From Azotobacter salinestris (GTDB lineage: Bacteria > Pseudomonadota > Gammaproteobacteria > Pseudomonadales > Pseudomonadaceae): 64,000 nt of DNA. Made by a program: the position numbers and the translations under genes. The notes beneath the pieces are model-generated. The model saw only the letters and a list, made by a program, of their open reading frames with translations. It ran no database searches and was not told the origin of the DNA. Shown here piece after piece: positions 39,283 through 59,422 of this stretch (position 1 is its first letter; each line of letters starts with the position of its first letter). Where the stretch lies: contig NZ_CP045302.1 in the NCBI RefSeq assembly GCF_009363155.1, forward strand, positions 1,129,001 through 1,193,000, written 5' to 3'.

Positions 39283-40380
39283 ATGTCTTTTAACTACGAG
39301 CAGCCGTTCCCCCTTCCGCCCGAAGGGCTTCAGGATCTGCTGGAAAACATCCTTCCCAGCGACCTTATCGAAATCATCGGGGACATCATCCCGTCCCTGC
39401 CGGACGGGATTAATACCTTCAACGTGGCCCAGGGTGTTCTGAACGGCAACACCCTCGAAGTCGAGGGCGAGGGCGCCAACGCTCCCAACGTGGTATTCGC
39501 CAACATCGCCGGCGTACAGGGCCAACAGCAGGGGGTCGTTATCCCGACCGGGATCCTGCAGACCGCCAGCCTCTACGCCTTCAACAGCGTGGCGGATCTG
39601 GCGCTGGCCTTCAACACCGTTGAGCGGACCATCATTTCCGGCGCTGGCAATGACCTCATTACCGTCTCCGGCGACAAGAACACCACGGTGGTCGGCGGTG
39701 CCGGCAACGACACCATCATCACCTCGGGCGGTAACGACTCGGTCGTCGGCGGTCTCGGCAACGACTCCGTCTCGACCGGTGCTGGCAACGACACCATCGT
39801 GTCCGGCCTCGGCCACGACACTATCAACGCCGGCAATGGCTTCGACGTCGTGAAGTTCAATGGCAGCGTCGACAACTTCAACCTCTTCGACCTCGACAAC
39901 GGCCAACTGCTGGTACACAACAAGCTGAGCCCCACCAACTCGGCCACCATCAGCAACACCGAGATCCTCAGCTTCGAGACCCCGGCCGGCACCGACAACA
40001 TCGTCCTCGTCGACAACGAGACAGATGCTGTTGCAATGCGTCTGTACGAAGGCTTCTTCGATCGCGACGCTGACATCGGCGGCGCCGAATACTGGCTCGA
40101 CCAGCTCGAATCGGGTGCCGTATCGCTGACCGACATCGCCAACAGCTTCCTGAACTCGGAAGAGCTCCAGGCCAATGGCGAGCTGGACGACTCGGCCTTC
40201 GTCGAACTGCTCTATGAAAATGCCCTGAACCGTGAAGCCGATGAGGCAGGCAAGGACTTCTGGGTCGAGCAGCTTGAAGGCGGTGCAAGCCGTGCAGATG
40301 TGGCCATCAGCATCGTTGGCTCTCCGGAAGCGGCTGAAACCATCGACAACGTCCTGATCATCTCGGGTGATCAGATCTAA
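39283..40380 (+). CDS. RTX-repeat protein with DUF4214 domain, surface/S-layer type
   Basis: A protein of 365 residues, very acidic and apparently free of cysteine. RTX-like calcium-binding nonapeptides occupy about 117-180 (GGAGNDTII, GGLGNDSVS, TGAGNDTIV). A DUF4214 region follows (about 246-350), with two similar units RLYEGFFDRDADIGGAEYW and LLYENALNREADEAGKDFW. The end VLIISGDQI is the kind of hydrophobic C-terminus used as a type I secretion signal, and there is no Sec signal. It is probably exported by a type I system not in this window. Its place among glycosyltransferases suggests a glycosylated surface or matrix protein. Confidence 0.82.
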   Translation: MSFNYEQPFPLPPEGLQDLLENILPSDLIEIIGDIIPSLPDGINTFNVAQGVLNGNTLEVEGEGANAPNVVFANIAGVQGQQQGVVIPTGILQTASLYAFNSVADLALAFNTVERTIISGAGNDLITVSGDKNTTVVGGAGNDTIITSGGNDSVVGGLGNDSVSTGAGNDTIVSGLGHDTINAGNGFDVVKFNGSVDNFNLFDLDNGQLLVHNKLSPTNSATISNTEILSFETPAGTDNIVLVDNETDAVAMRLYEGFFDRDADIGGAEYWLDQLESGAVSLTDIANSFLNSEELQANGELDDSAFVELLYENALNREADEAGKDFWVEQLEGGASRADVAISIVGSPEAAETIDNVLIISGDQI

Positions 40381-40494: not shown

Positions 40495-42570
40495 ATGACA
40501 TTCCAAGCCATGCCGCCTTCACTGTCTTCGCACATTCACAGCCATTTCAAGACGGGGGATGCGGACGCAACCCAGGCTGCATTGGCTCTGGCAATGCAGA
40601 CATCGGCCCACCGCAGCGAGGCGCTGGTCTGGCTGGGCGTCGTTGCCCTGCGTGAAGGCCGACCGGCCGATGCCTTCCTGCACCTGGCCAGGGCGTGCGA
40701 GCGCTTGCCTGGCCGGGCCGACCTCAGGACCCTGCTCGTCCGCTGCTCCCAGCGCCCCGAACCGACCGAAGCGCTCCTCCGCACAGCCCTGCAGCGTTTT
40801 CCCGCCGATCCCACCCTGCGTCGCTTGTACTGGAGCACTTGCCGAGCAAACCACCTGCATGCGGAGGTCGCCGCGCAGATCCATGCGCAACTGGCCGACA
40901 TCCGCGATCCGGCCGAGCTCCGGCAGGTGCTGGAGATCCTCGCCGCAGACCCGAAGACTGCACGACCGGTCGGCGTGATCCAGCATGATGCCGCCCGCGG
41001 CATCGTCACCGGCTGGGCCATCGATCCGAAGAACCCGGAACGCCCACCCCGCCTCCAGATGGCAAGCAATGAGTTTCGCCTCGAATGCGTGGCGGACAAT
41101 CCGAGCCCCCTGCTCGCCCAGGCCGGTTTCCCCGATACCCACGGCGCCATCCTGGTCCGCCTGCCTCAGGCGCCGAGGGTGCTGCGGGCAAGCTTCCATG
41201 ACGGCAGCGAGCTCATCGGCAGCCCGCTTGCCATCGAGCCGCCCTTCAGCCCGCCCGCTCCGAGCCCGAAGGATCCGGCCACGCAGCCGGTGGACGTCCT
41301 CGTCCCGGTATTCAAGGGTACCGAAGCTACCCTGGAGTGCCTCGACAGCCTGCTGCGCCACAGGCGCGACAATCGCACGCCGCACCAGATCATCGTGCTC
41401 GACGACGCCAGCCCAGAGCCACGACTGGTCCAGGCCATCGAGCAACTGGCCCGCCAGGGACGGATCCAACTGGTCCGCCGTCCGGTCAACCTCGGCTTCA
41501 TCCGCAACATGAACCGCGGCATGGCCCTGCATCCCGAGCGCGACGTGGTCTGGCTCAATGCCGACACCCGCGTGCACGGTGACTGGCTGGACCGCCTGCG
41601 AGCCGCCGCCTACCAGGCCGGGGACATCGCCTCGGTCACCCCCTTCACCAACAACGGCGAGTTGATGAGCTTTCCCAAAAGCCGCATCGCCAACCCCATG
41701 CCGAGCCCGCAAGCCCACGCCCGTCTGGACCGGGCGGCCCGCCAGAGCGGCCTCACCCCTGTCGAGCTGGAAGTGGGTTGCGGCTTCTGCTTCTACATCA
41801 AGCGCCGAGCGCTCGATGCGGTCGGTTATCTGGACGAAGAGGCCCTGCAGCGCGGCTACGGCGAGGAAACCGATTGGTGCCTGCGCGCCCGCCGCCAGGG
41901 CTGGCGCCACCTGGGAGCCACCAACCTGTTCGTCGCCCATGCGGGCGGTCACTCCTTCGGCCCGGAAAAGGCCCTGCGCGTATACCAGAACAACAGCATC
42001 CTGCGGCGCCGCTACCCCGACGCCGAGCGCCGCTTCGACGCTTTCGTCGCCCGTGATCCGCTGCGTCCGGCGCGGGAAGCCCTGCAACAGCTGCTCGCCC
42101 CCCAGGAACGTCCGGCCGAAACACCTTCGCCTGCGCTCTCTCCATTGGCCACCGCTCGCCCACTCCTGCCCGGCCGCTGCTGGCTGATCGCCGATCGACT
42201 CGAACAGCCGGGAATCGGCGAACGCTGGCTGCGGCTCGCGCGGCACCTGGCCCGTCAGCAACCGGCGATCACCCTGCTGCTGGCCGACGACACGCCCTGG
42301 GAAGTGCAACTGCTGGCTACCGACTGCGTCAGCCGCCTACCCCACGTCGAAGGCCTGGACGCCCGGCAGACCCTGGAACTGTGCGGCACCACGCTCGCCC
42401 TGAGCCTGGATGCCAGCTCGCCGGGCGCAACGCAACTCCCCCATCCTCTGCAGATCGCGCAACGCCATCGGCTGCCGCTGTTCGCCCCCGAAACCGCCGG
42501 ACTCGACCGGTTCGGCGCCTTCGGCTTGCACGAACTCCGTCCCTACCTGCCAGAAGAAATTCAGACCTGA
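40495..42570 (+). CDS. Large glycosyltransferase, GT2 type with N-terminal helical and beta-sandwich modules
   Basis: A protein of 691 residues. The N-terminal 1-150 is helical and TPR-like (EALVWLGVVALREGRPADAFLHLARA region). A beta-sandwich module starts near 165 with GIVTGWAIDPKNP. The GT2 domain (about 265-510) has VDVLVPVFKG, IIVLDDASPE, NLGFIRNMNRGMA, VWLNADTRV (the DXD-like metal site) and GYGEETDWCLRARRQGWRH. The remaining part is unassigned. No good ribosome binding site is visible before 40495, so the start may be the ATG at 40507. It is followed after three bases by the next glycosyltransferase. Confidence 0.85.
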   Translation: MTFQAMPPSLSSHIHSHFKTGDADATQAALALAMQTSAHRSEALVWLGVVALREGRPADAFLHLARACERLPGRADLRTLLVRCSQRPEPTEALLRTALQRFPADPTLRRLYWSTCRANHLHAEVAAQIHAQLADIRDPAELRQVLEILAADPKTARPVGVIQHDAARGIVTGWAIDPKNPERPPRLQMASNEFRLECVADNPSPLLAQAGFPDTHGAILVRLPQAPRVLRASFHDGSELIGSPLAIEPPFSPPAPSPKDPATQPVDVLVPVFKGTEATLECLDSLLRHRRDNRTPHQIIVLDDASPEPRLVQAIEQLARQGRIQLVRRPVNLGFIRNMNRGMALHPERDVVWLNADTRVHGDWLDRLRAAAYQAGDIASVTPFTNNGELMSFPKSRIANPMPSPQAHARLDRAARQSGLTPVELEVGCGFCFYIKRRALDAVGYLDEEALQRGYGEETDWCLRARRQGWRHLGATNLFVAHAGGHSFGPEKALRVYQNNSILRRRYPDAERRFDAFVARDPLRPAREALQQLLAPQERPAETPSPALSPLATARPLLPGRCWLIADRLEQPGIGERWLRLARHLARQQPAITLLLADDTPWEVQLLATDCVSRLPHVEGLDARQTLELCGTTLALSLDASSPGATQLPHPLQIAQRHRLPLFAPETAGLDRFGAFGLHELRPYLPEEIQT

Positions 42571-42573
42571 TCC

Positions 42574-44916
42574 ATGAAGCAATATCTTGGTGCTATTACC
42601 GGCCTGCACGGCGATGTCCTGCAGGGCTGGGCAATGGACCCCGGCAACCCGGACCTGCGTCTGGCGGTGGAGATCTATCTCGACCACGCGTTTGTCGCGC
42701 TCGTGCGTGCCGACCGGCAGCAACCGGCGGATGCCCCCGGCGACGGCTTCCACGGTTTCGCCGTGCAACTGCGCCCGAGCTGGCTGGCCAATGCCCGCCA
42801 TATCGCCGCGCGCATCGCCAACCACGGGCCCTGGCTGGAGGGCAGCATCAGCCTGCCGGCGCCAGCCCGCCCCGGGCAGCCAGACCCCATTGCCACCCAG
42901 GTCCAGTACCGGGGCGGACTCAAGCTCAAGGGCTGGGCCTGGGATCCCGAGGACCCGGCCCGCCACGTCGCGCTTCAGATACGCGAAGGCGAGCGGCTCC
43001 TGCTCACCGGCATGGCCGACCGGCTTCATGCGGCCCTGGCCAACCGTCCGACCAGCGACCATGGCTTCGACCTGGACCTGCCCTGGGAGTTGGCCGATGG
43101 CAAGCCGCACGAGCTGCACATCGAAACCGACAAGGGCGTGCCCCTGGATGGCAGTCCGATCCGCCTTTGCCTGCATCCCGAGGGACTGTCGGCCCTGCTG
43201 CAACGTCACTGGCCCCAGTGCGACCGGCCGACCGACGATGCCCTGCCGCTCCTGACCCGCCTGAGCACAATCCAGGAGCAGCTTTTCCCCGCCAGTGTCG
43301 GCTTTGCTCACTACCCCCAGTGGCACGCCCTGTTCCAGCAGCCGCAGCCGTTCAAGGACACCCCCGGCAAGGTGCTGGTCGTACTGCTCGGCGAAGAGGA
43401 CACGCAAGCCGAAGCGACCAGCCGCGCCAGCCTGCAGGAACAGCGCCTGCCCGCCGAGCAGATCCAGACGATCGCGCCCACCGAAGCGGACCTGCTCGAC
43501 GCCGTGGCGCGGCACGCCCCTGGCGCCCGTCTCGTCGTGCCGCTCTGGCGCGGCGACCGGCTCGCGCCCCAGGCACTCGACACCCTGCTCGCCGGCCTCG
43601 CCGAATCCGGTGCCGCCTGGGCCTATGCCGACTGCGACCAGGACAGCGCCGACAGCGCGCACCGCAATCCCTGGCTCAAGCCCGCCTGGGACGAAACCCT
43701 GTTCTACGGCATGGACATCGTCAGCCCCGGCAGCGCCTTCGCCAGCGACACCCTGCTGAAGGCGATCGCCTACCTGCAGCAAGCGGGGCTCGCCACGTCG
43801 CCGGACTGGCATCGACTGCTCGCCAGTGTCGTGGCCATCCGGGCCGGGGCGGTTGCACATATTCCCCAGGTGCTCTATCACCGCCGCGCCTCCGCGCCCA
43901 CCAGCCCGTACCAAGCCTTGCCGGATGCCCGCCGCCAGGCCGCCGTGCAATGGCTGGCACAACAGCGCATGCCCGGCGCTAGTCTGGAGCTCGTCGAAGG
44001 CCTTCCCGCCCTCAACCGTGTGCGCTGGCCCCTGCCCGCCCAGTTGCCGGACATCAGCCTGATCGTGCCGACCCGCGACCAGCTCGCACTGCTGCGTCCG
44101 TGCATCGAAGGGCTGCTCACCGCCACTGATTACCCGGCGCTCGAAATCATCGTCGTCGACAACGACTCCCGCGATCCGGCCACCCTCGCCTATCTCGACG
44201 ACATCGCCCGCCGAGGCGTGCGCGTACTGCGCTATCCGTACCCGTTCAACTACTCGACCATCAACAACTGGGCGATCGAACAGGCCCGGGGCAGCATCGT
44301 CGGCCTGGTCAACAACGACATCGAAGTGCTCGAACCCGGCTGGCTGAAGGAAATGCTCGGCCAGCTGCTGCGCCCGGGCATCGGCGCGGTGGGCGCCAAA
44401 CTGCTTTGGCCCAATGGCATGGTCCAGCATGGCGGCGTGGTAGTCGGCATTAACGGGCTGGCAGCGCACGCCGGCAACCACCTGAACAAGGACGATCCAG
44501 GCTACCTCGGCTTCAATCGGCTGGCCCGCGAGCAGAGCGCCGTCACTGCCGCCTGCCTACTGGTGCGCAAGGCCGACTACCAGTACCTGGGCGGATTGGA
44601 CGAGGACCGCTTTCCCGTCGCCTTCAACGACGTGGACTTCTGCCTGCGCCTGGGACAGACCGGCAAGCGCCTGGTCTGGACCCCGTTCGCCATCCTGACC
44701 CACGCGGAGTCCGCCAGCCGCGGCCAGGAGGACATCCCCTCCGAACAGGCCCGGACCATGCGGGAACAAAGAAACTTCATCGAGCGCTGGAGCAGTTGCC
44801 TGGAACCGGGCGACGCCTGCTACCACCCCGGCCTCAGCGCCGACTACCTGACTGGCCCCTATGGCGGCCTCGCAATCCCCCTACGCCCGGCCATTGCACG
44901 CAAACGCCCGGCGTAA
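42574..44916 (+). CDS. Large glycosyltransferase, GT2 type with two beta-sandwich modules
   Basis: A protein of 780 residues starting three bases after the previous stop. Two beta-sandwich modules are recognisable by GDVLQGWAMDPGNP (about 13) and GLKLKGWAWDPEDP (about 115). A middle domain resembles a partial GT2-like fold (about 255-480). The catalytic GT2 domain (about 494-720) has ISLIVPTRDQ, IIVVDNDSRD, VGLVNNDIEVLEPGWL, ACLLVRKADY and FNDVDFCLRLGQTGKR. It resembles rhamnosyl- or polysaccharide-type GT2 enzymes. It is cotranscribed with the gene before it. Confidence 0.88.
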   Translation: MKQYLGAITGLHGDVLQGWAMDPGNPDLRLAVEIYLDHAFVALVRADRQQPADAPGDGFHGFAVQLRPSWLANARHIAARIANHGPWLEGSISLPAPARPGQPDPIATQVQYRGGLKLKGWAWDPEDPARHVALQIREGERLLLTGMADRLHAALANRPTSDHGFDLDLPWELADGKPHELHIETDKGVPLDGSPIRLCLHPEGLSALLQRHWPQCDRPTDDALPLLTRLSTIQEQLFPASVGFAHYPQWHALFQQPQPFKDTPGKVLVVLLGEEDTQAEATSRASLQEQRLPAEQIQTIAPTEADLLDAVARHAPGARLVVPLWRGDRLAPQALDTLLAGLAESGAAWAYADCDQDSADSAHRNPWLKPAWDETLFYGMDIVSPGSAFASDTLLKAIAYLQQAGLATSPDWHRLLASVVAIRAGAVAHIPQVLYHRRASAPTSPYQALPDARRQAAVQWLAQQRMPGASLELVEGLPALNRVRWPLPAQLPDISLIVPTRDQLALLRPCIEGLLTATDYPALEIIVVDNDSRDPATLAYLDDIARRGVRVLRYPYPFNYSTINNWAIEQARGSIVGLVNNDIEVLEPGWLKEMLGQLLRPGIGAVGAKLLWPNGMVQHGGVVVGINGLAAHAGNHLNKDDPGYLGFNRLAREQSAVTAACLLVRKADYQYLGGLDEDRFPVAFNDVDFCLRLGQTGKRLVWTPFAILTHAESASRGQEDIPSEQARTMREQRNFIERWSSCLEPGDACYHPGLSADYLTGPYGGLAIPLRPAIARKRPA

Positions 44917-45977: not shown

Positions 45978-48629
45978 ATGAAAAGCCTCTGCATTACCGG
46001 CAGCGTCCAACGCAACCTAGATGCTTTTGCCGCCAATCTCGGTAAGGCGGGCGCCGCCGCTGCGCGCCCCTCCATCCGCGACGCGGAAATTTCTATCGCC
46101 GCCTGGCACCGTAAGATACTCGCCATCCAGGCGGCCCGCGAAGCCGACCTTGCGGCTCCCCCGCCCCTCGGCCGGGTCTGGGAACAGTTGGCCGGCGACA
46201 TTTTTCTGGCCAACTATACCCAGCCGCTCTGGTACTGGGCCGAGGCCGACAGCGTCCATGTCCTCGACTTCTGGCTCGACTTCGACCCAAACACCTTCTT
46301 CCTGCTCCTACACACTTCCCCCCATCAAGCCCTGCTGGGTGCAATCAAGCATGGAGAAGCCACCCTAGAAACCCTACAGGACACCCTCGACGACTGGTAT
46401 ACGCGTACCCAACTGATCCTGCGCTTTCACCTGCGCCACCCGGCGCGCAGCGTCCTGCTCGACAGCTGCGACACACTCGGCCAAACCGGCGCCTGCCTCG
46501 AAGTTCTCGCCCAACGCTGGCACCTACCGCTGGAAACGTCAGACATCAAGCCTCTCCGGCAAGCCGAAGATCCGCTGGCCTATTATCTAGTCGACACCTT
46601 CCTGCAGAACCAGCCTCAAGCACTGGCCCTGCACAACGAAGTCCAAGCCAGCCTGCTGCTGATCGACGATGAACCAACATCGGCAGCCCTCCCTGCATTG
46701 AATGATGCAGTCGTCGACTACCTCGAAACACGCTGCCTGCTCCTCAGTGGGCAAGCGAAAAACGCCTCCCTGCACCAAGCCCTGGAGGCCAGCCAGACGC
46801 AGCTCGCCGAAGCCGAACGATTACTGCACGAGCAAAAGATCTGCCTTGCCCAGACCCTGGCTCAGGCCAAGCAATACCAACAGGAACTCTCCGCGACCTG
46901 CGACAGCCTGGAAAGCAGTGAACAGAAAAACCAGCTCCTGCTCGACCAGTTGCACCGGACTCTGAGCGATCTGGAAAAACTGGCTCTTGAAGACCAACGC
47001 AAAACCCAGCAAGTCGCCAGCCTGAGTACGGAAAAAGCCGCACTGCAGAACCAGCTCGATACCCTGCGCCAGACCTTGAAGGCCAGCCAAGCACAACTCC
47101 AACAGTCCCAGCAAGACCTATCCGATACCCGCGGCAACTTGGAAAGCAGCGAAGAGGAAAACCAGCTCCTGCTTGCCCATCTACACCAGACCCAGGAAGA
47201 CTTCGAGCGGCTGGTTCTGGAAGACCAGGGCAAGACCCGCCAGTTGGAAAACCTGAAGGCGGAAAAAAACGCGCTACAGAACCAGCTTGATGTCCTCATT
47301 AGGGAAAAGGCCGACCTCATTGCCAAGCGCGATGCCTTGACCCAGGAAAAAACCGCCATTGCCACCGCCCGTGACGAGCAGGCCAAACTGGCCAGCGAGC
47401 GCAAGACCCAACTCGACGCACTCGCCAAGGAAAAGGCCGACCTCCTCGCCAAGCGCCATGCTCTGACCCAGGAAAAAACCGCCATCGCAGCCGCCCACGA
47501 CGAGCAGGCCAAACTGGCCAGCGAGCGCCAGACCCAACTCGAAGAAGCGGAAAGCGAAAACGAACTGCTGCTGGTCCAAGTCCACCAGACCCAGGAAGAA
47601 CTCGAGCAATACCTCCTGCAATCCCAAGCCATCCAGACGCAACTGGACGAACAGCACAGGCGTCTGGAGAAAATACAGGCACGCTACCCCAACTACTGGT
47701 TCGACAGCCTTGAAGCCAGCCTGCTGGACAGCAACGACCCGCAACAGGCCGTCCAGTGGCGCCTGACCGATGTCTACCTAGGCAAACGCCTGATACCCGA
47801 GATCCACTTCAAGACTATCCTGGTCAACGGCTTGGCCAATATCATCATCCAACGCACAGCGGGTATCTCCTCACCAGCACCGCTGCTGCGCTGGCCCGGA
47901 GCCTTCGCCAGCAGCGAAGAACTGCCTTTCATCCCCAGCAAAGGTCCGGCCATCCAAGGCAGCAACGCCGCCTTGAGCGGACTGGGTCCGACCGACTGGA
48001 ATAGCCTGAAGATACTCGTCAAACACCTGGCCAGCCTCCTAGTAAAGCCCGCTGACAGCCGCCTGCCAAAACGGCTCGATACCACCGCCCTGCGCAATGG
48101 CCTGCTCGTCTTTGAACAGATTCTAGCCAAGTGGCCCAAAGTACTGCGCTATGACAGCATCCAGAGCCAAGAGGAGGCGTTGCCTGGCAATGCTTACGGC
48201 TTGAGCCTCAAACTGCGCAATCTGCATTTTGGCGACCATCAGTGGCCCGAGCTTGACTACAGCCTCGCCACCATCCACACGGCAAAGAAACCCTTTGGTC
48301 AGAATATCCGCCTGGAATTCCCCGAAAGTACCCGCAGTGCCTTGGATAATTGGTTTGCTGAAAGCCACGATGAGCGTGGTCCTCGCTTGGAATTGCGCTT
48401 CACCCAGCCGGACGTCATGGATACCTTCGTCTGGAACACCCTTGCCCAGAATGACCGCCAACTGATCGGTGCCCTGATTGGTGGCCTTCCACTCCAGATC
48501 GAAGAACTACAACACATCCACTCCTGCGCCATCAGGCCTTGGCAGGATTGGCAAGCCCTAGCCAACTCACTCAGGGAAATCCTAGCCAACAGTGCCATTG
48601 CCGCCGCTCGCCAACTGCAAGGAGCATGA
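45978..48629 (+). CDS. Long coiled-coil protein of the glycan locus, unknown function
   Basis: A protein of 883 residues. The N-terminal 1-240 is globular; its opening CITGSVQRNLDAFAANL and the RTQLILRFHLRHPARSVLLDSCD region faintly recall sulfotransferase-like P-loop proteins, but the resemblance is weak. Residues about 255-575 form a coiled coil rich in Gln, Glu, Leu and Lys. It includes two 42-residue repeats (six heptads each, 47307-47432 and 47433-47558). The last 300 residues are a second globular domain with no family recognised. The next gene starts at its stop (TGATG). Confidence 0.72.
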   Translation: MKSLCITGSVQRNLDAFAANLGKAGAAAARPSIRDAEISIAAWHRKILAIQAAREADLAAPPPLGRVWEQLAGDIFLANYTQPLWYWAEADSVHVLDFWLDFDPNTFFLLLHTSPHQALLGAIKHGEATLETLQDTLDDWYTRTQLILRFHLRHPARSVLLDSCDTLGQTGACLEVLAQRWHLPLETSDIKPLRQAEDPLAYYLVDTFLQNQPQALALHNEVQASLLLIDDEPTSAALPALNDAVVDYLETRCLLLSGQAKNASLHQALEASQTQLAEAERLLHEQKICLAQTLAQAKQYQQELSATCDSLESSEQKNQLLLDQLHRTLSDLEKLALEDQRKTQQVASLSTEKAALQNQLDTLRQTLKASQAQLQQSQQDLSDTRGNLESSEEENQLLLAHLHQTQEDFERLVLEDQGKTRQLENLKAEKNALQNQLDVLIREKADLIAKRDALTQEKTAIATARDEQAKLASERKTQLDALAKEKADLLAKRHALTQEKTAIAAAHDEQAKLASERQTQLEEAESENELLLVQVHQTQEELEQYLLQSQAIQTQLDEQHRRLEKIQARYPNYWFDSLEASLLDSNDPQQAVQWRLTDVYLGKRLIPEIHFKTILVNGLANIIIQRTAGISSPAPLLRWPGAFASSEELPFIPSKGPAIQGSNAALSGLGPTDWNSLKILVKHLASLLVKPADSRLPKRLDTTALRNGLLVFEQILAKWPKVLRYDSIQSQEEALPGNAYGLSLKLRNLHFGDHQWPELDYSLATIHTAKKPFGQNIRLEFPESTRSALDNWFAESHDERGPRLELRFTQPDVMDTFVWNTLAQNDRQLIGALIGGLPLQIEELQHIHSCAIRPWQDWQALANSLREILANSAIAAARQLQGA
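47307..47558 (+). repeat. Tandem 126-bp repeat in the 883-residue coiled-coil gene
   Basis: Two highly similar 126-bp units encode 42 residues each (KADL-AKR-ALTQEKTAIA pattern). The length equals six heptads, so copy-number change would alter rod length but keep coiled-coil register. Confidence 0.8.
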
Positions 48630-50185
48630 TGATGGATACCGCACACCCCACTGAAATCCGACCAATGCCCACCCCTGCGCAGACCACCCGCCTTTTGCAA
48701 GGGCTGTTCCCACCCCGAGCGGCAATCATTGTCGGCGCCAGCCGTAGCCATCGCCACCTGCTCGAGTGGCCGGGCGTCCGGCCGGAACACGTCCTGCTGG
48801 TCGATGCCCATCCAGAAGCCCTGGCCAACACCCGGCAGAAGATTGCTACGACAAGCGCCTGGCAGATGCGCCACGCAGTACTTGCCGACAGCAAACGACA
48901 GGCCCGCTTCTTCTGCGCCAGCAACCCCGGCGAAGATGGCCTCGTCCCACCGCAAAAACTTGCCGAACTCTGGCCCAACCTGCGCGCCACAGACGAGTGG
49001 ACCTGCACTACACAGACCCTTCAGGACGTGCTCGCCGACCCCGAGCAGGCCGAACTCGTCGAGGCCAGCGACATCTGGCTAGTCGTGAACTGCCTGCCGG
49101 CGCTGCGCATCCTCCAAGGCGCCGGCCCACTGCTCGAACACTGCAAGGTGCTCTGGCTACGGGTCCTGCTCGAACCTTTGGAAGACGGCGAACCCGGCTC
49201 CACCCTGGAGGAAGCCGAGCGTTACCTCGCCGACCGACATTTCCGTCGTATCCACTGCATCGAGGAAAACCATCCCCGGATCGGCCAAGCCATTTTCCTG
49301 CGCGACGACAGCACCTTGCACGAACGAGAAATCGCCCGCCTCCAAGCTACCTGCGACAGCTTGGAGACGAGAAGGTCAGACCTGTTCATCGAATGTGACG
49401 CTCTGCGTCAGGAGCAGATCCGGCTCGCCGCCGAACATCAAGCCCAGCTCGAAGCCTTTACCAAGGAAAAAGCCGAGCTACTCGCAGCCCGCGATGCCCT
49501 GCTCCAGGAGAAAGCGGCCCTCACCAAAGCCCGCGACGAACAGGCTAAACTGGCCAACGAGCGCCAGGCCCGCATTGAGGCACTGACCCAGGAAAGCACC
49601 GCTCTGACGGCAACCCACGACAAGATGGTTGGCGAACGTGACCAGCAGACTCGGCTGGCCGCCGAACGTCAGGCTCAGCTCGAAGCCCTCGCCAAGGAAA
49701 AAGCCGAGCTACTCGCAGCCCGCGATGCCCTGCTCCAGGAGAAAGCGGCCCTCACCAGAGCCCGTGACGAACAGGCCAAACTGACCAGCGAGCGCCAGGC
49801 CCGGATCGAGGCACTGACCCAGGAAAGCACCGATCTGACGGCAACCCGCGACAAGATGGTCGGCGAGCGCGACCAGCAGACCCGGTTGGCCGCCGAACGT
49901 CAAGCTCAGCTCGAAGCCCTCGCCAAGGAAAAAGCCGAGCTACTCGCAGCCCGCGATGCCCTGGTCCAGGAGAAAGCGGTCCTCACCAGAGCCCGCGACA
50001 GCCAGACCCAGCTTATTGCCGAACGTGATGAACGTGTCCACCAGCTCGAAGCCGACCTCCAGAAAAGCCTGACCTGCTTGCAACTGATGCAGGACGAACT
50101 AGTCAAGGGCGAGGCCCAGATCGAACTGATCAAAGACCTGTTGCTGCGCGAACCGGGGCTAAGAGCATGCTACACAACATTATGA
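48629..50185 (+). CDS. FkbM-like domain plus coiled-coil repeat protein
   Basis: A protein of 518 residues when started at 48629; three successive ATGs (48626, 48629, 48632) follow AAGGAG and the exact one is uncertain. Residues about 20-225 match the strand order of FkbM methyltransferases, from AAIIVGASRSHRHLLEW through VLLVDAHPEALANTR to LRILQGAGPLLEHCKVLWLR and a final FRRIHCIEEN. The SAM loop lacks the normal glycine pattern, so catalysis is doubtful. The remaining 280 residues are a continuous coiled coil of 77-residue repeats. The layout, a methyltransferase-like head on a coiled-coil rod, recalls the WbdD chain-length ruler. Confidence 0.72.
   Translation: MMDTAHPTEIRPMPTPAQTTRLLQGLFPPRAAIIVGASRSHRHLLEWPGVRPEHVLLVDAHPEALANTRQKIATTSAWQMRHAVLADSKRQARFFCASNPGEDGLVPPQKLAELWPNLRATDEWTCTTQTLQDVLADPEQAELVEASDIWLVVNCLPALRILQGAGPLLEHCKVLWLRVLLEPLEDGEPGSTLEEAERYLADRHFRRIHCIEENHPRIGQAIFLRDDSTLHEREIARLQATCDSLETRRSDLFIECDALRQEQIRLAAEHQAQLEAFTKEKAELLAARDALLQEKAALTKARDEQAKLANERQARIEALTQESTALTATHDKMVGERDQQTRLAAERQAQLEALAKEKAELLAARDALLQEKAALTRARDEQAKLTSERQARIEALTQESTDLTATRDKMVGERDQQTRLAAERQAQLEALAKEKAELLAARDALVQEKAVLTRARDSQTQLIAERDERVHQLEADLQKSLTCLQLMQDELVKGEAQIELIKDLLLREPGLRACYTTL
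49463..50010 (+). repeat. Tandem 231-bp repeats in the FkbM-like/coiled-coil gene
   Basis: Units start at 49463, 49694 and 49925 (the last partial). Each full unit encodes 77 residues, exactly eleven heptads. The units are nearly identical in DNA, which implies recent duplication or gene conversion. Confidence 0.88.
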
Positions 50186-50751
50186 ACTGGCTGCGCCGCC
50201 TGGTCGGCGCCAGTCCACGCAAACAAAAATCCAATACCCCCCCCCTGACCGATCAGTCCGCTTCGAGCGATGAAAAGGTCATGGCTCTCTCGGAAGAGCA
50301 TATCGGGACGGTCGTCCCCTATGACGAAAACCTACTAGAACGTGCTCGTACCCAATGGCAGTTCGGCGACTGGCAGAGCCTAGCTGCAATCGAGCAAAGC
50401 AGCTTGGAGCATCATCCGGATAGGGCCAAACTGGCCCTGCTGGCTGCTGCGGGGCATATGCAAATCGGCGCCCGCGAAGAAGCCCACCTTTTCTTCCAGC
50501 TAGCACGGGACTGGGGATGCAGCAAACAGCTGATCAGCCAAGTGCTGATTTCAGGTGTACATAACTCGCTCGGTTGCGCTGCCATCCTGATGGGGCAAGA
50601 GCAACGTGCATTGTCGCACCTCAATCAGTCTGTCGTGCTTGGTGGGCCCAGAAGCGATACGAAGCTGTTAACACAGGCTCGGGTAATCCAACAATGCAGA
50701 GCTATTGGCACGCCTCCTCCGCTAAGCCTCGAATTTAAGCAAAATATATAG
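50167..50751 (+). CDS. Small helical (TPR-like) protein
   Basis: A protein of 194 residues overlapping the end of the previous gene by 19 bases in another frame, which suggests coupling. A basic, possibly amphipathic N-terminus (MNWLRRLVG) is followed by helical repeats (about 60-175) such as LALLAAAGHMQIGAREEAHLFF, typical of TPR-like proteins, though no exact repeat was verified. It may be a scaffold for the glycosyltransferases. Base composition begins to fall near its 3' end. Confidence 0.6.
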   Translation: MLHNIMNWLRRLVGASPRKQKSNTPPLTDQSASSDEKVMALSEEHIGTVVPYDENLLERARTQWQFGDWQSLAAIEQSSLEHHPDRAKLALLAAAGHMQIGAREEAHLFFQLARDWGCSKQLISQVLISGVHNSLGCAAILMGQEQRALSHLNQSVVLGGPRSDTKLLTQARVIQQCRAIGTPPPLSLEFKQNI

Positions 50752-50754
50752 TTA

Positions 50755-53700
50755 ATGACCTCCTCAATCAAGAAATCCTCATTGAATATGACCGAGAAAA
50801 ATATACTCACAACTTTTAATCAAGCAAATTTAGCTCTGCGGGCAGGCAAGCTCAAGGAGGCAATTGAACTATATACTCTGGCGCTTGATGAGCATCCACA
50901 TCTAGAAAGTCACATTCGTTTTAGTATGAGCCTCGCATCCAAACGCCAGGGGAATTCACTTGAAAAAGCCTCAGAGGAAAAGCCACAATTTGCGCTGGTT
51001 ATTCATGCCTTCCACTTGGATGTACTTGATGACCTCGTTTATCATGTTGCCAACTTCCCCAAAGATGCTGACCAATACGTCACATTTCCTGAAGATTTTC
51101 CTGATGACAAGCGTACGGCAATCAAGTCTGCATTTCCTAAGGCTACCGCAGTGGCAGTTCCCAATGTAGGCCAAGACATAGGCGCTCTGTTTTCTCTAAT
51201 GGACAAAGTTAATTTGTCCAGATATGGATTCATATGTAAAATCCACTCCAAAAAAGGAAATAAGAAACCTCTTGAGTGGCGCCTAGCTCTTTTACGTGGA
51301 GTATTGGGAAGCCAAGCGCAGGTTTTGCGAACAATAAAAATTTTCCAAAGCGATCCGAGTGTTAAATTAGCAGGATCTCGCCAGCTGTACTTACATGGCC
51401 CATCGAACCTTTGGAAAAATGCCGAAAACATTCGTAAAATGTTTGGCAATCTAGTTACCGGTTTTGATTATACATCCAAGGACTGGGGCTTTATTGGCGG
51501 CACCTGTTTCTGGATTAGAACCGACATTTTGACAGCGATCCGTGATCAGATGCGCCGTATTGAACTGAAACCTACGGCCTATATTGATGATGGAACACCT
51601 GCTCATGCAGTGGAACGTATATTCGGTATGCTCCCTGTGATTTCTGGGGGAAAGGTTGTTCTCAATGATGTTATTGATATAGATGCGCCTGTGACTGAGA
51701 CAAAAGCGTTCCCAACCGGCCTGCCTAAGGAGCGAGTATCTATTGTTGCATTACTGGACAAACTAAAGCTCCCTACAACCACAATCACACAGGTTGCAGC
51801 CACCTCACTTGAATCAACACTTGTTTCGAAAACCAGCCTCACGAAAAACCCACAAATTCGAGGCTCTTTGGAGTTAATTACTAATAGACCAGAAATTCAT
51901 GGCTGGCTTGCCAATATGGGAGATGAAACACCACGTAAGGCAATCATCCGGATCGAAGATACAGACATCCCTGTCATGGCTGCGACCTTTCGCGCAGATT
52001 TGAAGAAACACAATATTAATGCAGGGAAGCATGCCTTCTCTATAACCGTACCAACCCTATTCATGGATGGAAAACCTCATCAACTAGCCTTGATAGATGA
52101 TAAAACTAGAACCATAATAGTACAAAAAACATGCTCATGGGAGCGCCCTAAACGAAACTATGTCGACTTCGCGAGCTTCTTAGAGTCTTCAATGACTCAG
52201 CCAATCATTCAAGCTCCCTTCACCGAGGAGGACAAGCGCAGCTTTGCAATGATGGAGAATATTGCCAACCGCCTTTGCAAGCAAGCTGCTGACCTTACTT
52301 CACCACCGCTTGTTTCGGTGATAATGCCAGTTTATAATCGCGAAAAAATTCTTGCCTATTCTATCAAATCAGTACTTGAGCAAAACTATAAGTATTTTGA
52401 ACTGATCATAATTGATGATGGCAGCTCCGATGGAAGCATCGCAGTTGCCGAAAGCTTTTCAGACAGAAGAATCAAGCTACTAAAACAGCGATCAAATGCC
52501 GGGCATTCAGCAGCGAGAAATGCCGGCTTGAGCGCAGCACGTGGAAAAATTATCGCTTATCTTGACTCTGACAATACTTGGGACCCGCGTTATCTTTCAG
52601 CTACAGTCGGTGCTTTTAATAACCTTCCAGATGCAGATGCCGTATACTCAGGCCAACTTCTTTATCGCGGCCACTCTAAAGAGCCGTTTGCAGTTCGCTA
52701 TGGTCACTTCAACCGGTCGCTTTTAGAAAACAATAACTTTATCGACCTTAACTCATTTGCTCATGACCGAAAACTTCTCGAAAAAATCCAAGGCTTTGAC
52801 ATAAGCCTAAAACGTTTTGTCGATTACGACCTTGTTCTCAGAGCATCGGAACAGGGCAAGCTTTACTCTATCCCCGTCATTCTCAGTCACTATTTTTATG
52901 ACAAAGCAGAAAACACAGTGACTAACGAGATCAAACATCTCTCCGACATGGATATTGTTCGGACCCGGCTTGAAACCCGCACCCGCAATCGTTTGCAGAT
53001 TCTCGACAAAGCAGATTTAGAACATCATACAACGGTTGTAATCCCAAATTGGCAATCACTCGAGGATATACGTGATTGTTTAAAGTCGCTTTCTGCCCGT
53101 GACTGGAAGGGTATGCTCGACATTATCATTGTCGACAACAATTCAGACGAGAATGTGCTGGCATACCTTAGAGCAGAGTCGGTAGCCTCACACATCATCT
53201 TAATCGAAAATAAACGGAATTACGGATTTACTTACGCAGTCAATCAAGGCATTGCACGCTCGCGCCCTGGCTCGGATATTCTTCTGCTGAATAATGATGC
53301 CATCGCCCAACCCGGCGCTATTGCGGCGTTACAGCGTGCCTGCTATAGCCTGCCCGATGCCGGCATGACCGTTCCACGCCAGATATTGCCAACCGGGACA
53401 AAAACGCTACGGACTCATGTACCTTATGCTAACGAAGCAAGAGATTGCGATGTAAACATCTCGGCTCACCACCAAAATATCGTTACCCTCCCCCTCTTCC
53501 ACGATGGTGGAGTGCTTGAGCTATCTTATGCGGCTTTCTTTGCAGTATATATCCGTAGAGATATAATTAACGACCTTGGCTCACTCGATGCCGAATACGG
53601 ACGACATTATCGCTCTGACCGTGTTTATTGTGACTTTATGCGCAATATACTTGGGAGAAAACTATATTACATTCCAGATTCTTTTTTTATCCACAAGCTA

Positions 53701-53835
53701 CAGAAAGCAACAGACACCTTGCGAGACTCAGGCAAGCGTGACACCGAGTTCGAGCTAATGTTCAAGCGAAATCAATGGGATACTGAAACAGCTGCCGCAT
53801 TAAACTTCCGTCAAGCCGCATGGGATATATTCTAG
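50755..53835 (+). CDS. RgpF-type domain fused to two GT2 glycosyltransferase domains
   Basis: A protein of 1026 residues starting three bases after the previous stop. A short TPR-like start (15-60) precedes a rhamnan-synthesis-F (RgpF) domain at about 76-325 (FALVIHAFHLDVLDDL, NVGQDIGALFSLMD, ICKIHSKKG, FIGGTCFWIR). A beta-sandwich follows (about 370-470, EIHGWLANMGDE). The first GT2 domain (about 518-740) has VSVIMPVYNRE, IIIDDGSSDGS and AYLDSDNTWDP. The second (about 758-1000) has VVIPNWQSLEDIRDCL, IIVDNNSDE and LLLNNDAI. It likely makes a deoxyhexose-rich glycan in several steps. GC content is far below that of the upstream genes, which suggests transfer. Confidence 0.88.
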   Translation: MTSSIKKSSLNMTEKNILTTFNQANLALRAGKLKEAIELYTLALDEHPHLESHIRFSMSLASKRQGNSLEKASEEKPQFALVIHAFHLDVLDDLVYHVANFPKDADQYVTFPEDFPDDKRTAIKSAFPKATAVAVPNVGQDIGALFSLMDKVNLSRYGFICKIHSKKGNKKPLEWRLALLRGVLGSQAQVLRTIKIFQSDPSVKLAGSRQLYLHGPSNLWKNAENIRKMFGNLVTGFDYTSKDWGFIGGTCFWIRTDILTAIRDQMRRIELKPTAYIDDGTPAHAVERIFGMLPVISGGKVVLNDVIDIDAPVTETKAFPTGLPKERVSIVALLDKLKLPTTTITQVAATSLESTLVSKTSLTKNPQIRGSLELITNRPEIHGWLANMGDETPRKAIIRIEDTDIPVMAATFRADLKKHNINAGKHAFSITVPTLFMDGKPHQLALIDDKTRTIIVQKTCSWERPKRNYVDFASFLESSMTQPIIQAPFTEEDKRSFAMMENIANRLCKQAADLTSPPLVSVIMPVYNREKILAYSIKSVLEQNYKYFELIIIDDGSSDGSIAVAESFSDRRIKLLKQRSNAGHSAARNAGLSAARGKIIAYLDSDNTWDPRYLSATVGAFNNLPDADAVYSGQLLYRGHSKEPFAVRYGHFNRSLLENNNFIDLNSFAHDRKLLEKIQGFDISLKRFVDYDLVLRASEQGKLYSIPVILSHYFYDKAENTVTNEIKHLSDMDIVRTRLETRTRNRLQILDKADLEHHTTVVIPNWQSLEDIRDCLKSLSARDWKGMLDIIIVDNNSDENVLAYLRAESVASHIILIENKRNYGFTYAVNQGIARSRPGSDILLLNNDAIAQPGAIAALQRACYSLPDAGMTVPRQILPTGTKTLRTHVPYANEARDCDVNISAHHQNIVTLPLFHDGGVLELSYAAFFAVYIRRDIINDLGSLDAEYGRHYRSDRVYCDFMRNILGRKLYYIPDSFFIHKLQKATDTLRDSGKRDTEFELMFKRNQWDTETAAALNFRQAAWDIF

Positions 53836-54253
53836 CGAATTACCCCCTACATAACTTCCTATTAGGGCGGCATACCTTATTCGTGCATCCACAAGACTAC
53901 AATTATTTGCTGCCCCATCAAAAAAACCACCCCAACTCATTCCCCTTATCTTTAAAAACTATCCCCCACCGGAACAACTTGCATAGATTGACTCGGCGAA
54001 ATTTTAAAAGACCTTCCAACAACCGAGCGCACTACCAAAAGCCGAATCTCAAAGAAAACTCACCAAAAGGATACTCTGAAAAAGCCTTTTATGTCTAAAG
54101 GGAGATACTCTGGAAGCTTCGTCTCCTTTTCTATGAATACATGGGAAGTAGATTTTTCAGCGCTTCGAAGATCTAAAAGAAGGCTCTGCAGTTTTACTTT
54201 CCGGCACTTTAGATACTGTCAACTCAGCGACCACATCTAAGGAAGGAGCTTAA
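53836..54253. other. AT-rich intergenic region
   Basis: About 420 bases. One 92-codon frame starting within the preceding gene end has no family character and odd composition, so I do not count it. The last 15 bases hold the strong AAGGAAGGAG ribosome binding site of the next gene. Confidence 0.4.
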
Positions 54254-54892
54254 ATGTACGACCACTATGTTTCTCTTGGCGAAAACTGTGAAGCTGCATT
54301 TAATTTCAGAAGAATACTTGGTAAAGACATAGCCTATTATTTTAACTGGCTTGTCACACCACTCGACTCATTAATCGACATCATTGAAAATGACTTCAAA
54401 GAAGACTTCGAGATAGGCAATCTTTATCACAAGAACAATCAGATTGTTATGATTACGGATAAACGTTATAACATCTCTCATCATAGCCCCTTCAAGGAAA
54501 TTGAAGGTCGACTTTCAGGACATGACTTTGAAACCATCTACAAAAGCCACAAAGACAAACTAGCTCTACTCAAAGAGCGATTCAGGGCGCTTGCCCAGTC
54601 AGAGCTATTTGTACTCTATTTTATAAAAGCCGGAGAGCTAACCGGAGCAACTAACGTACGAGCTAAATGTGTAAAACTCAGAGACATCATGCTAGACCGT
54701 TATCCAAGCCATAAATTTAATATTGTAGTACTGCAAGAAAAGGACCGCTTTGAATTACAATGGGATGAGCCCAGGATATTTAATCGCTACCTCGACAGAT
54801 TTGCCCCTTACAATAACGTACCTAATTATCATAAGGAATCATGGGATAGGATATTCAGTGAGTTTCCACTAAATCCTAGAGGGATGGTCTGA
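54254..54892 (+). CDS. DUF1796-family putative papain-like cysteine peptidase, 3' end replaced by MITE
   Basis: A protein of 212 residues. The opening HYVSLGENCEAAFNFRRILG and the following FNWLVTPLDSLIDIIENDF match DUF1796, in which the Cys of the SLGxxC motif is a proposed nucleophile. The family often sits in capsule or glycan loci. The last three residues and the stop (GMV then TGA) lie inside a 99-bp MITE inserted at 54882. Removing it would give about seven different residues before another stop supplied by an IS630 end. The native C-terminus is therefore lost. Confidence 0.78.
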   Translation: MYDHYVSLGENCEAAFNFRRILGKDIAYYFNWLVTPLDSLIDIIENDFKEDFEIGNLYHKNNQIVMITDKRYNISHHSPFKEIEGRLSGHDFETIYKSHKDKLALLKERFRALAQSELFVLYFIKAGELTGATNVRAKCVKLRDIMLDRYPSHKFNIVVLQEKDRFELQWDEPRIFNRYLDRFAPYNNVPNYHKESWDRIFSEFPLNPRGMV

Positions 54893-55144: not shown

Positions 55145-56338
55145 GGAAATCCTGAAAAAGACTTCCCGATTCTGGTGAAATACACCCGCTCCCTTGTCCG
55201 AGTTTCCCGATGAAGCAACTGTCCTTCGCCGATGCCGAGTATGCCGGCAAGCGCAAGCAGACCCGCCGCGAGCGCTTCCTGCTCGAGATGGACCAGGTGG
55301 TGCCGTGGCAGGGGCTGATCGCCCTGATCGAGCCCTACTATCCCAAGGGCGAAGGCGGTCGGCCCGCCTACCCGCTGGCAGCCATGCTGCGCGTGCACCT
55401 GATGCAGAACTGGTTCGGCTACAGCGATCCGGCGATGGAGGAAGCGCTGTACGAAACCACTCTCCTGCGCCAGTTCGCCGGCCTGAGCCTGGAGCGCATC
55501 CCGGACGAAACGACCCTCCTCAACTTCCGTCGCCTGCTGGAGAAGCACGAACTGGCCGGGGGAATACTGGAGGTGATCAACGGCTATCTGGGCGAGCGCG
55601 GACTGTCGCTGCGCCAGGGCACCATTGTCGACGCCACCCTGATCCATGCGCCGAGCTCGACGAAGAACAAGGACGGCAAGCGCGACCCGGAAATGCACTC
55701 GACGAAGAAGGGCAACCAGTACTACTTCGGCGCAAAAGCTCACATTGGTGCCGACGCTGAGTCGGGTCTGGTGCACAGCGTGGTGGTCACGGCAGCCAAC
55801 GTGGCAGATGTCACCCAAGTCGACCAACTGCTGCATGGCGAGGAAAACGTAGTGAGTGCCGATGCGGGCTATACCGGCGTAGAGAAGCGCCCCGAGCATG
55901 AAGGTCGGCAGGTCATCTGGCAGGTCGCGGCCCGGCGCAGTACCTACAAGAAGCATGGCAAGCGTAGCGCCTTATACAAAGCGATCCGCAAGATCGAGAA
56001 GGCCAAGGCCCAGGTACGAGCCAAGGTCGAACATCCGTTCCGCGTGATCAAGCGCCAGTTTGGCTACACCAAGGTGCGCTTCCGGGGATTGGCCAAAAAC
56101 ACGTCACAGTTGGTGACGCTGTTCGCCTTGTCGAATCTGTGGATGGCGCGCCGATATTTACTGGCGAATGCAGGAGAGGTGCGCCTGTAATGCGGGAAAC
56201 GGTTGCTGCGACGTGCTTGCGGCAGCTAAAAAACGCAGAAACGAGCGGGTGATCTGATCGTTTTTGATCGATTCTCCGCTTTCAAAGTCGGCGGGGGGCT
56301 GAAGTCAGCCAGAAATACATGACTACTTCAGACCATCC
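55145..56338 (+). mobile_element. IS5-family element, copy 2
   Basis: 1194 bp, nearly identical to copy 1 at 23889-25082 and in the same orientation. It is flanked by CTAA at 55141-55144 and 56339-56342. The different target duplication from copy 1 shows independent insertion rather than joint movement as a composite unit. Confidence 0.93.
55210..56190 (+). CDS. IS5-family transposase (copy 2)
   Basis: A protein of 326 residues, identical to the transposase of copy 1, with the complete DDE core. The near-absence of differences implies recent transposition in this genome. Confidence 0.95.
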   Translation: MKQLSFADAEYAGKRKQTRRERFLLEMDQVVPWQGLIALIEPYYPKGEGGRPAYPLAAMLRVHLMQNWFGYSDPAMEEALYETTLLRQFAGLSLERIPDETTLLNFRRLLEKHELAGGILEVINGYLGERGLSLRQGTIVDATLIHAPSSTKNKDGKRDPEMHSTKKGNQYYFGAKAHIGADAESGLVHSVVVTAANVADVTQVDQLLHGEENVVSADAGYTGVEKRPEHEGRQVIWQVAARRSTYKKHGKRSALYKAIRKIEKAKAQVRAKVEHPFRVIKRQFGYTKVRFRGLAKNTSQLVTLFALSNLWMARRYLLANAGEVRL

Positions 56339-58117: not shown

Positions 58118-59422
58118 ATGAAATATACGGTAAATATTGTAAGGCACGAAGTAAAAAGCCAAAAAATAAAATATGCTATTGATTTTCCGATAGCAGAGAC
58201 AATAGAAATAAATCGCGGATTTTTTTTTGAATTTAAAGGCTGGGCCTTTTCCTTAGATCTAAGAGAGGTAAATTTTGTTTTTAGCTTTTCAGCAGGGGCC
58301 AAGATAAAGCCAAATGTGAATAGGCATGATGTTGTAAGAGTTTTCAATGATGCTCCTTTGTTGTGTGGAATAAGTCATTTAATATCATTTAATGGAGACT
58401 TTAAGTTAGGGTTGGACTTGGGTGGAAATATTGAGTGGGTGGCATCATTCAACTTTATACCAGTCAAAGTTATTGAGGGGAGGGAGGGGTATCTTTTTTT
58501 GGATAAAGATTCGAACCATAGTACTGATCAGTATTCTGGAAAGAAACTTATCGATAGGCAAAATATAAATGCATGGTCTAATTATTTTTCCGAAGTAGAG
58601 AAGAAAATAATAGCAAAAAATAAAAAATTTGCATTTGTTATCGCCCCAGGAAAAGAATACATTTTTCCAGATTTCTATCCAGTTCAGCGGGGAATGCCGA
58701 CCCCGGTTGATCAATTCATATCGCTTTTCTCTGAAAGAACAAAAATTATAGCTCCATGGTCAGTGCTAATGGAGCAGCGTAATTTTTCTTACTCAAAAAC
58801 TGATACTCACTGGACGGGATACGGAGCTGGATTGGTTGCTGAGGTGGTATGTAAGGAGCTTGGTGTTAATTATGTTGATCCAAAATTTAAATACGTTCTT
58901 TCAAAGAGGACTGGTGATTTAGGGGCAAAGTTTATTCCGCATAGAACAGAGTTCTGTTTAAGCGCCGACTACTCTCAAGCTTTAAAATATTTGACTTTTG
59001 ATAATGGGGTTCCGGTAAGAGGTAATATTTTAGTTTTATCAAATCCTAACACAGCGAGCGACAGGGCCTGTGTCATATTTGGAGATTCTTTTTCTAGGGC
59101 TTTTGCACTGCATCTGAGCTTTACTTTTAAGCGAGTTGTTTTAATTTTTTCAGGAGCAGATATAGACTGGGGTATTGTCGATAATGAAGATCCAGAGGTT
59201 GTTATAGCAGAGCTTACGACTAGATTTTTAATTTGCGCTCCGAAGGCAGGGTTTTCTATAAGCCAAGAAATTAAAAGAAAGTATAAGGCTATGTCGAGCG
59301 GCGAAAAGAATAAATTCAAAGAAAAACTGAATAAATTTAAATCGATAGAAAATGATTACTATCAAAGAGTTTCAAGTGATCTTACTGATGATTTAAGCTC
59401 GTGCTTGGGCGAAATATGTTAG
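58118..59422 (+). CDS. AlgX/AlgJ-like SGNH-type protein, probable glycan O-acetyltransferase
   Basis: A protein of 434 residues, strongly AT-rich. The N-terminal 1-120 is beta-rich, then a module starts with KVIEGREGYLFLDKDSN, as in the AlgX/AlgJ/WssI group. Catalytic residues are visible as Asp229 and His231 in KTDTHWTGYGA and Ser324 in FGDSFSRAF. The His-Ser spacing is 93 residues, which equals that in Pseudomonas AlgX (176 and 269 as I recall). The 93-165 YLFLDKD region supports the assignment. No signal peptide is present, unlike AlgX, so it may act in the cytoplasm. The stop codon uses the first base of an IS427-type element, so the C-terminus may be truncated. Confidence 0.8.
   Translation: MKYTVNIVRHEVKSQKIKYAIDFPIAETIEINRGFFFEFKGWAFSLDLREVNFVFSFSAGAKIKPNVNRHDVVRVFNDAPLLCGISHLISFNGDFKLGLDLGGNIEWVASFNFIPVKVIEGREGYLFLDKDSNHSTDQYSGKKLIDRQNINAWSNYFSEVEKKIIAKNKKFAFVIAPGKEYIFPDFYPVQRGMPTPVDQFISLFSERTKIIAPWSVLMEQRNFSYSKTDTHWTGYGAGLVAEVVCKELGVNYVDPKFKYVLSKRTGDLGAKFIPHRTEFCLSADYSQALKYLTFDNGVPVRGNILVLSNPNTASDRACVIFGDSFSRAFALHLSFTFKRVVLIFSGADIDWGIVDNEDPEVVIAELTTRFLICAPKAGFSISQEIKRKYKAMSSGEKNKFKEKLNKFKSIENDYYQRVSSDLTDDLSSCLGEIC

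Follow-up and report, generated by a model that had tools for sequence, protein, structure and literature searches.

The locus lies in a 64,000-nt window of the Azotobacter salinestris genome (GCF_009363155.1, contig NZ_CP045302.1, positions 1,129,001-1,193,000 of the forward strand), where window means the whole stretch of DNA that was analyzed. The open reading frame at its center encodes a methyltransferase-like head joined to a long coiled coil (here called the FkbM-headed rod), and its start codon (ATG) overlaps the stop codon (TGA) of the preceding gene, which encodes a second coil protein (the partner rod). The features of the region are the following.

39283..40380, + strand: RTX/DUF4214 protein, 365 aa (Pfam DUF4214, 8.9e-30; RTX repeats, 6.2e-13)
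40495..42570, + strand: GT2 glycosyltransferase, 691 aa, with a weak TPR match at the N terminus
42574..44916, + strand: GT2 glycosyltransferase, 780 aa
45213..45818, + strand: class I methyltransferase, 201 aa (Methyltransf_11, 1.8e-10)
45978..48629, + strand: partner rod, 883 aa, paired with the FkbM-headed rod (adjacent in 8/8 loci)
45978-46748, + strand: sulfotransferase-like head of the partner rod, without P-loop
47303-47542, + strand: partner coil with 42-aa units
47640-48626, + strand: partner C-terminal domain, no PDB fold match
48629..50185, + strand: FkbM-headed rod, open reading frame of 518 aa
48629..49333, + strand: degenerate FkbM-like methyltransferase head, aa 1-235 (hhalign, AF2 model, fold comparison)
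49334..50107, + strand: long coiled coil, ~261 aa from residue 232, ~39 nm if fully helical
49413..49999, + strand: 231-bp tandem units, 77 aa or 11 heptads, 2.5 copies, 92% identical
50078..50161, + strand: conserved C-terminal tail, 28 residues, LQLMQDELVKGEAQIELIKDLLLREPGL
50167..50751, + strand: TPR-like small protein, candidate adaptor, motif YDENLLERARxQWQFGDWxSL...HHPDRAKLAL
50755..53835, + strand: RgpF-type plus double GT2 glycosyltransferase, 1026 aa, with low GC3 (0.42)

Pfam matches confirmed that glycosyltransferase genes adjoin the rod gene, as the original prediction had it. The RTX/DUF4214 protein is likely a type I secretion substrate. Type I secretion genes, identified by reading the sequence, also occur downstream of the window, as do genes for a large multi-domain glycosyltransferase, a 479-aa methyltransferase with a coil and a Wzt protein with a Wzt_C domain (4.5e-37). 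RTX-type proteins were also found in the rod loci of Azomonas, Stutzerimonas (by sequence reading), the complete genome G925 and Comamonadaceae, and a literature search found no paper linking DUF4214, glycosyltransferases and type I secretion. Two IS5-type transposase genes (23954-24934 and 55210-56190) stand one on each side of the glycan region, on the same strand and ~31 kb apart; they agree in their start, in their length (326 aa) and in GC by codon position. GC3 is 0.71 in the rod gene and drops across 50167-54892, first to 0.60 and then to 0.40-0.42 in the glycosyltransferase and DUF1796 genes that come next, which suggests a replaceable stretch that may have been acquired recently. A protein with an AlgX-like SGNH hydrolase domain is encoded close to the glycan genes (58118-59422).

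Used alone, the window head gave no match against the genome contigs. A scan of the same contigs with a profile from a four-row alignment returned five loci, in Azotobacter beijerinckii, Azomonas macrocytogenes, Stutzerimonas stutzeri, a Methylobacter MAG and a Comamonadaceae MAG. G925 was added through a search with the C-terminal tail, and the Escherichia coli pond plasmid pAL.H8 through a plasmid search. The relatives are thus six FkbM-headed rods and one E. coli plasmid variant, which with the window rod make eight loci. Four others among 398 genomes of the host family match, one of them weakly, and of 5426 E. coli genomes a single one has the gene pair. On pAL.H8 the pair (L104:12186-15791) lies between KpsD/M/T/E-like genes and glycosyltransferase, glf and KpsC-like genes, an ABC-type capsule locus. 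As in the window, a sulfotransferase-like coil protein is followed by an adjacent protein with an FkbM-like head and a coil (WP_223042424 and WP_223042425); unlike the window pair, it sits in a capsule export locus and has an extra C-terminal methyltransferase domain, and neither tandem units nor the tail were seen. RefSeq names these two proteins DUF8374 domain-containing protein and O-methyltransferase. No DUF8374 match was obtained with the Pfam version searched, the E. coli relative so named included, and a literature search found no paper on DUF8374.

The head had been predicted to be a degenerate FkbM-like domain, and profile comparison and fold agree on this. Against an alignment of nine FkbM proteins, hhalign gave a probability of 83 (E 8.6e-6) over 172 columns, while the reversed head gave 0.1 and all reversed and unrelated controls stayed at or below 1. 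The NCBIfam model TIGR01444 (fkbM_fam) matched three of four relatives below threshold (E 0.004-0.03), and the score of the head, 14.7 bits, is far below the family cut-off of 37.7. A Pfam scan of the rod protein returned no methyltransferase, FkbM or kinase match, and the head alignment found nothing when searched against PDB sequences. The AF2 model of the head (pLDDT 83, pTM 0.83) has a class I Rossmann methyltransferase fold; structural alignment (VIA) gave Z 13.9 to COMT and Z 12.4 with an rmsd of 2.9 to the FkbM protein 2py6, whose query TM-score (0.53) was the highest of the listed PDB chains. The head therefore has the fold of the FkbM family and resembles its profile over nearly the full length; it differs in falling below the family cut-off, in lacking the KIDxEGxE motif and in being fused to a rod.

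The motifs of the head suggest that its chemistry has been lost. VNCLPAL stands in place of KIDxEGxE in the window head, and the motif is replaced in 8/8 heads, for example by VNCLPAL or IDCLPAL. Motif I of the window head reads GASRSH, without the glycine-rich SAM loop; the Azotobacter/Azomonas clade has GASRSH, GASQSN or GANQSN here. We therefore consider terminating chemistry unlikely, and on its motifs the window head looks catalytically inactive. The rod could instead be an active, unusual FkbM-type O-methyltransferase that uses its coil for oligomerization or membrane location only. Such an enzyme would account for the class I fold, for the acidic residue retained after the second strand, for the glycine-rich loop (e.g. 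GAGTGNG) kept in five of the eight heads, where SAM binding may therefore persist, and for an ASNPxEDGL-type signature that is possibly part of a substrate pocket. This signature is common to six of the eight heads (ASNPGEDGL in the window); G925 has the variant ATNPDEDGL, and the plasmid relative from E. coli has ASNPWESGL. Against these features must be set the FkbM motif, replaced throughout the family, and the altered glycine loop of the Azotobacter/Azomonas clade, and we consider an active enzyme quite improbable. A pseudogene was also considered and rejected: the head evolves under purifying selection (dN 0.15-0.31 versus dS 0.75-1.65), so the gene is not decaying.

The head of the partner rod looks inactive as well. 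Compared with sulfotransferases by hhalign, the partner head gave probabilities of 96-97 (E 2.8e-9 and 4.4e-10), and the reversed control gave 0.4. This match came with a larger alignment; a two-row sulfotransferase alignment gave a probability of 2, and a single sequence also gave no significant match. The P-loop, GMHRSGTS in sulfotransferases, reads ITGSVQRN in the window and is replaced in all relatives examined. The C-terminal domain of the partner was modeled with a pLDDT of 82 (59-69 for the other four models), and matched nothing in the PDB by sequence or by Foldseek; a plasmid search for it also found none. The domain contains a possible internal duplication. In all eight loci, divergent as they are, the FkbM rod gene directly follows the partner coil gene. 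The partner coil carries repeated peptides of the ENxLLLxQLHQxQEELExxxL type, and near-identical peptides occur in coil proteins of G691, G925, Stutzerimonas and E. coli.

The coiled coil of the FkbM-headed rod contains tandem units. TRF reported a period of 231 bp with 2.5 copies, 92% matches and a score of 1006 (403 for the next-best array of the window), and the protein matches itself at offsets of 77 and 154 residues. A simple a/d scan found a single heptad register, up to a/d ambiguity, over most of the coil. The proposal that 231-bp units encode eleven heptads and leave the register unbroken is borne out, as is the existence of near-identical tandem units, although the array is short and no long array is present. 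Unit differs from unit at 27 of 356 DNA positions, distributed 5/7/15 over the three codon positions (~119 sites each). The third-position difference of ~13% is far below the synonymous difference of 58-67% between the window head and the heads of A. beijerinckii and Azomonas. Amplification or homogenization of the units must therefore be younger than the separation of these lineages, in line with the predicted recent origin.

Across the seven FkbM rods the main repeat periods are 77, 56, 14/28/84, 63, 70, 70 and 42 residues, each divisible by 7. Comparison between species thus supports the prediction that rod length changes without a break in the heptad register. Weaker secondary periods of 67, 137 and 207 residues, which are not multiples of 7, occur in the Stutzerimonas and Methylobacter rods. 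Since the main periods are all heptad multiples and the units mostly differ, we conclude that the rods were re-amplified in separate lineages with the register kept. Coil spans range from 240 to 512 aa, or ~36-76 nm if fully helical, and the Azomonas coil has 511 aa versus 261 aa in the window rod. Separate amplification in nearly every FkbM-rod lineage, with head and tail conserved, argues against neutral repeat turnover, in which units would come and go without functional effect and seven-fold periods would reflect only the needs of the helix register. Neutral turnover would nevertheless fit the fast divergence of coil sequences between species and the partner coils, which are also repetitive and have some periods not divisible by 7 (103, 131, 81 and 88); we regard it as a quite unlikely explanation. 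Clear sharing of units between the two rod genes was seen only in Azomonas, and we do not claim concerted evolution between them. The repeat region of the Comamonadaceae rod contains an in-frame stop codon (L030:11135-11137), which may be real or a MAG assembly error.

The tail at the C terminus of the rod is highly conserved. The heads of A. beijerinckii and Azomonas are 56-62% identical to the window head, while 27 of the 28 tail residues match in these species and tails are 96-100% identical among the Azotobacter/Azomonas proteins. Codon differences in the tail number 1/1/11 by position, of 27, so that the protein is kept while third positions vary freely. Tails of this type are also found at the end of GT2 proteins in three rod loci, of a sulfotransferase-like protein in Comamonadaceae, of a G925 sulfotransferase that retains GMHRSGTS and of an unrelated G691 coil protein. 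A literature search found no paper with the tail motif.

The tail is accompanied by the TPR-like gene. In ten genomes, this gene was present in 7/7 with the tail and 0/3 without it; of the seven, G691 and G925 came to light solely by their tails, and some of the genomes tested for co-occurrence had also contributed to the tail profile. In G691 the protein encoded immediately before the TPR-like gene bears the tail but has another kind of head. Both the tail and the TPR-like gene are missing from Stutzerimonas, which has the gene pair, and the variant on the E. coli plasmid has its second methyltransferase domain in place of the tail; any docking through the tail would therefore not be universal. 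By sequence reading, genes resembling cysD, cysN and cysQ lie next to the Comamonadaceae TPR-like gene (L120:9020-13262), and the cysD/cysN-like genes suggest that the glycan there may be sulfated.

A small number of O-antigen systems with working terminators are known to have coiled-coil rulers. The original prediction likened the rod to WbdD (found in E. coli O8/O9a), and the likeness, which extends to similar terminators of ABC-exported O antigens, is partial. Both have an N-terminal methyltransferase-type fold, a long coil, a C-terminal region that, in the rod, may suit partner recruitment, and glycosyltransferases encoded nearby. In WbdD-type proteins the coil separates an N-terminal terminating or catalytic site from a C-terminal polymerase-recruiting site (PMC11231755; PMC3482155), an order of parts that the rod shares, with its conserved tail at the recruiting position. 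The rod differs in having neither a kinase nor an intact SAM motif, in its FkbM-related head, in coils of up to 512 aa with near-identical tandem units and in an obligate second pseudoenzyme rod that the comparison with WbdD had not foreseen. A WbdD-like ruler would have a head that stops or senses the chain, a coil that sets reach and a tail that recruits the polymerase, with unit number corresponding to glycan length. Rod lengths that differ in whole heptads agree with this, as do the E. coli relative, with its KpsD/M/T/E-like and KpsC-like neighbors and a methyltransferase domain added beyond the coil, and an ABC O-polysaccharide exporter in the same region: Wzt with Wzt_C lies ~39 kb from the rod in A. 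salinestris, and Wzt_C was found in five of the eight rod genomes (four strong matches, one weak). However, no Wzt_C match was obtained in the complete genome G925, which has a rod, or in the Comamonadaceae MAG, and the window head has lost the FkbM and SAM motifs. Moreover, the A. salinestris genome encodes a separate, intact methyltransferase-plus-coil protein close to Wzt (L023:779-2215, 479 aa), a candidate terminator and a better WbdD counterpart than the FkbM-headed rod. As a ruler would also leave the paired second rod unexplained, we think it unlikely.

We favor instead, at about an even chance, a reading in which the rod is a non-catalytic pseudoenzyme scaffold of a glycan-assembly complex and its coil length sets spacing. 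The two rods would assemble together, and the tail would dock, probably via the TPR-like protein encoded next door, so that glycosyltransferases or sulfotransferases with the tail would be gathered in one complex. Without being catalytic, the heads may bind nucleotides, sugars or other proteins, and coil length would set the distance between head and docked enzyme. The product here could be a glycan on the RTX/DUF4214 protein encoded upstream or a surface polysaccharide of the same region. A bolder form of the scaffold reading, which we hold to be rather unlikely as a whole, is that whole-heptad recombination in paired, pseudoenzyme-capped rods tunes the distance from a glycan-sensing head to a tail-docked transferase and so sets glycan length or the spacing of modifications, the shared tail being a docking code read by the TPR-like adaptor.

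Our best reading is that the two-rod module is new as a module, with a function that we infer from its parts. Both heads look dead in this scattered module, which sets it apart from the known rulers with their working terminators, and a short tail and an adaptor-like gene travel among enzymes that are not related. Should the tail prove to be a docking code, it would provide a sequence handle for finding glycan-assembly complexes. Azotobacter and Azomonas, with coils of 261 and 511 residues and near-identical tails, would offer a natural experiment on rod length.
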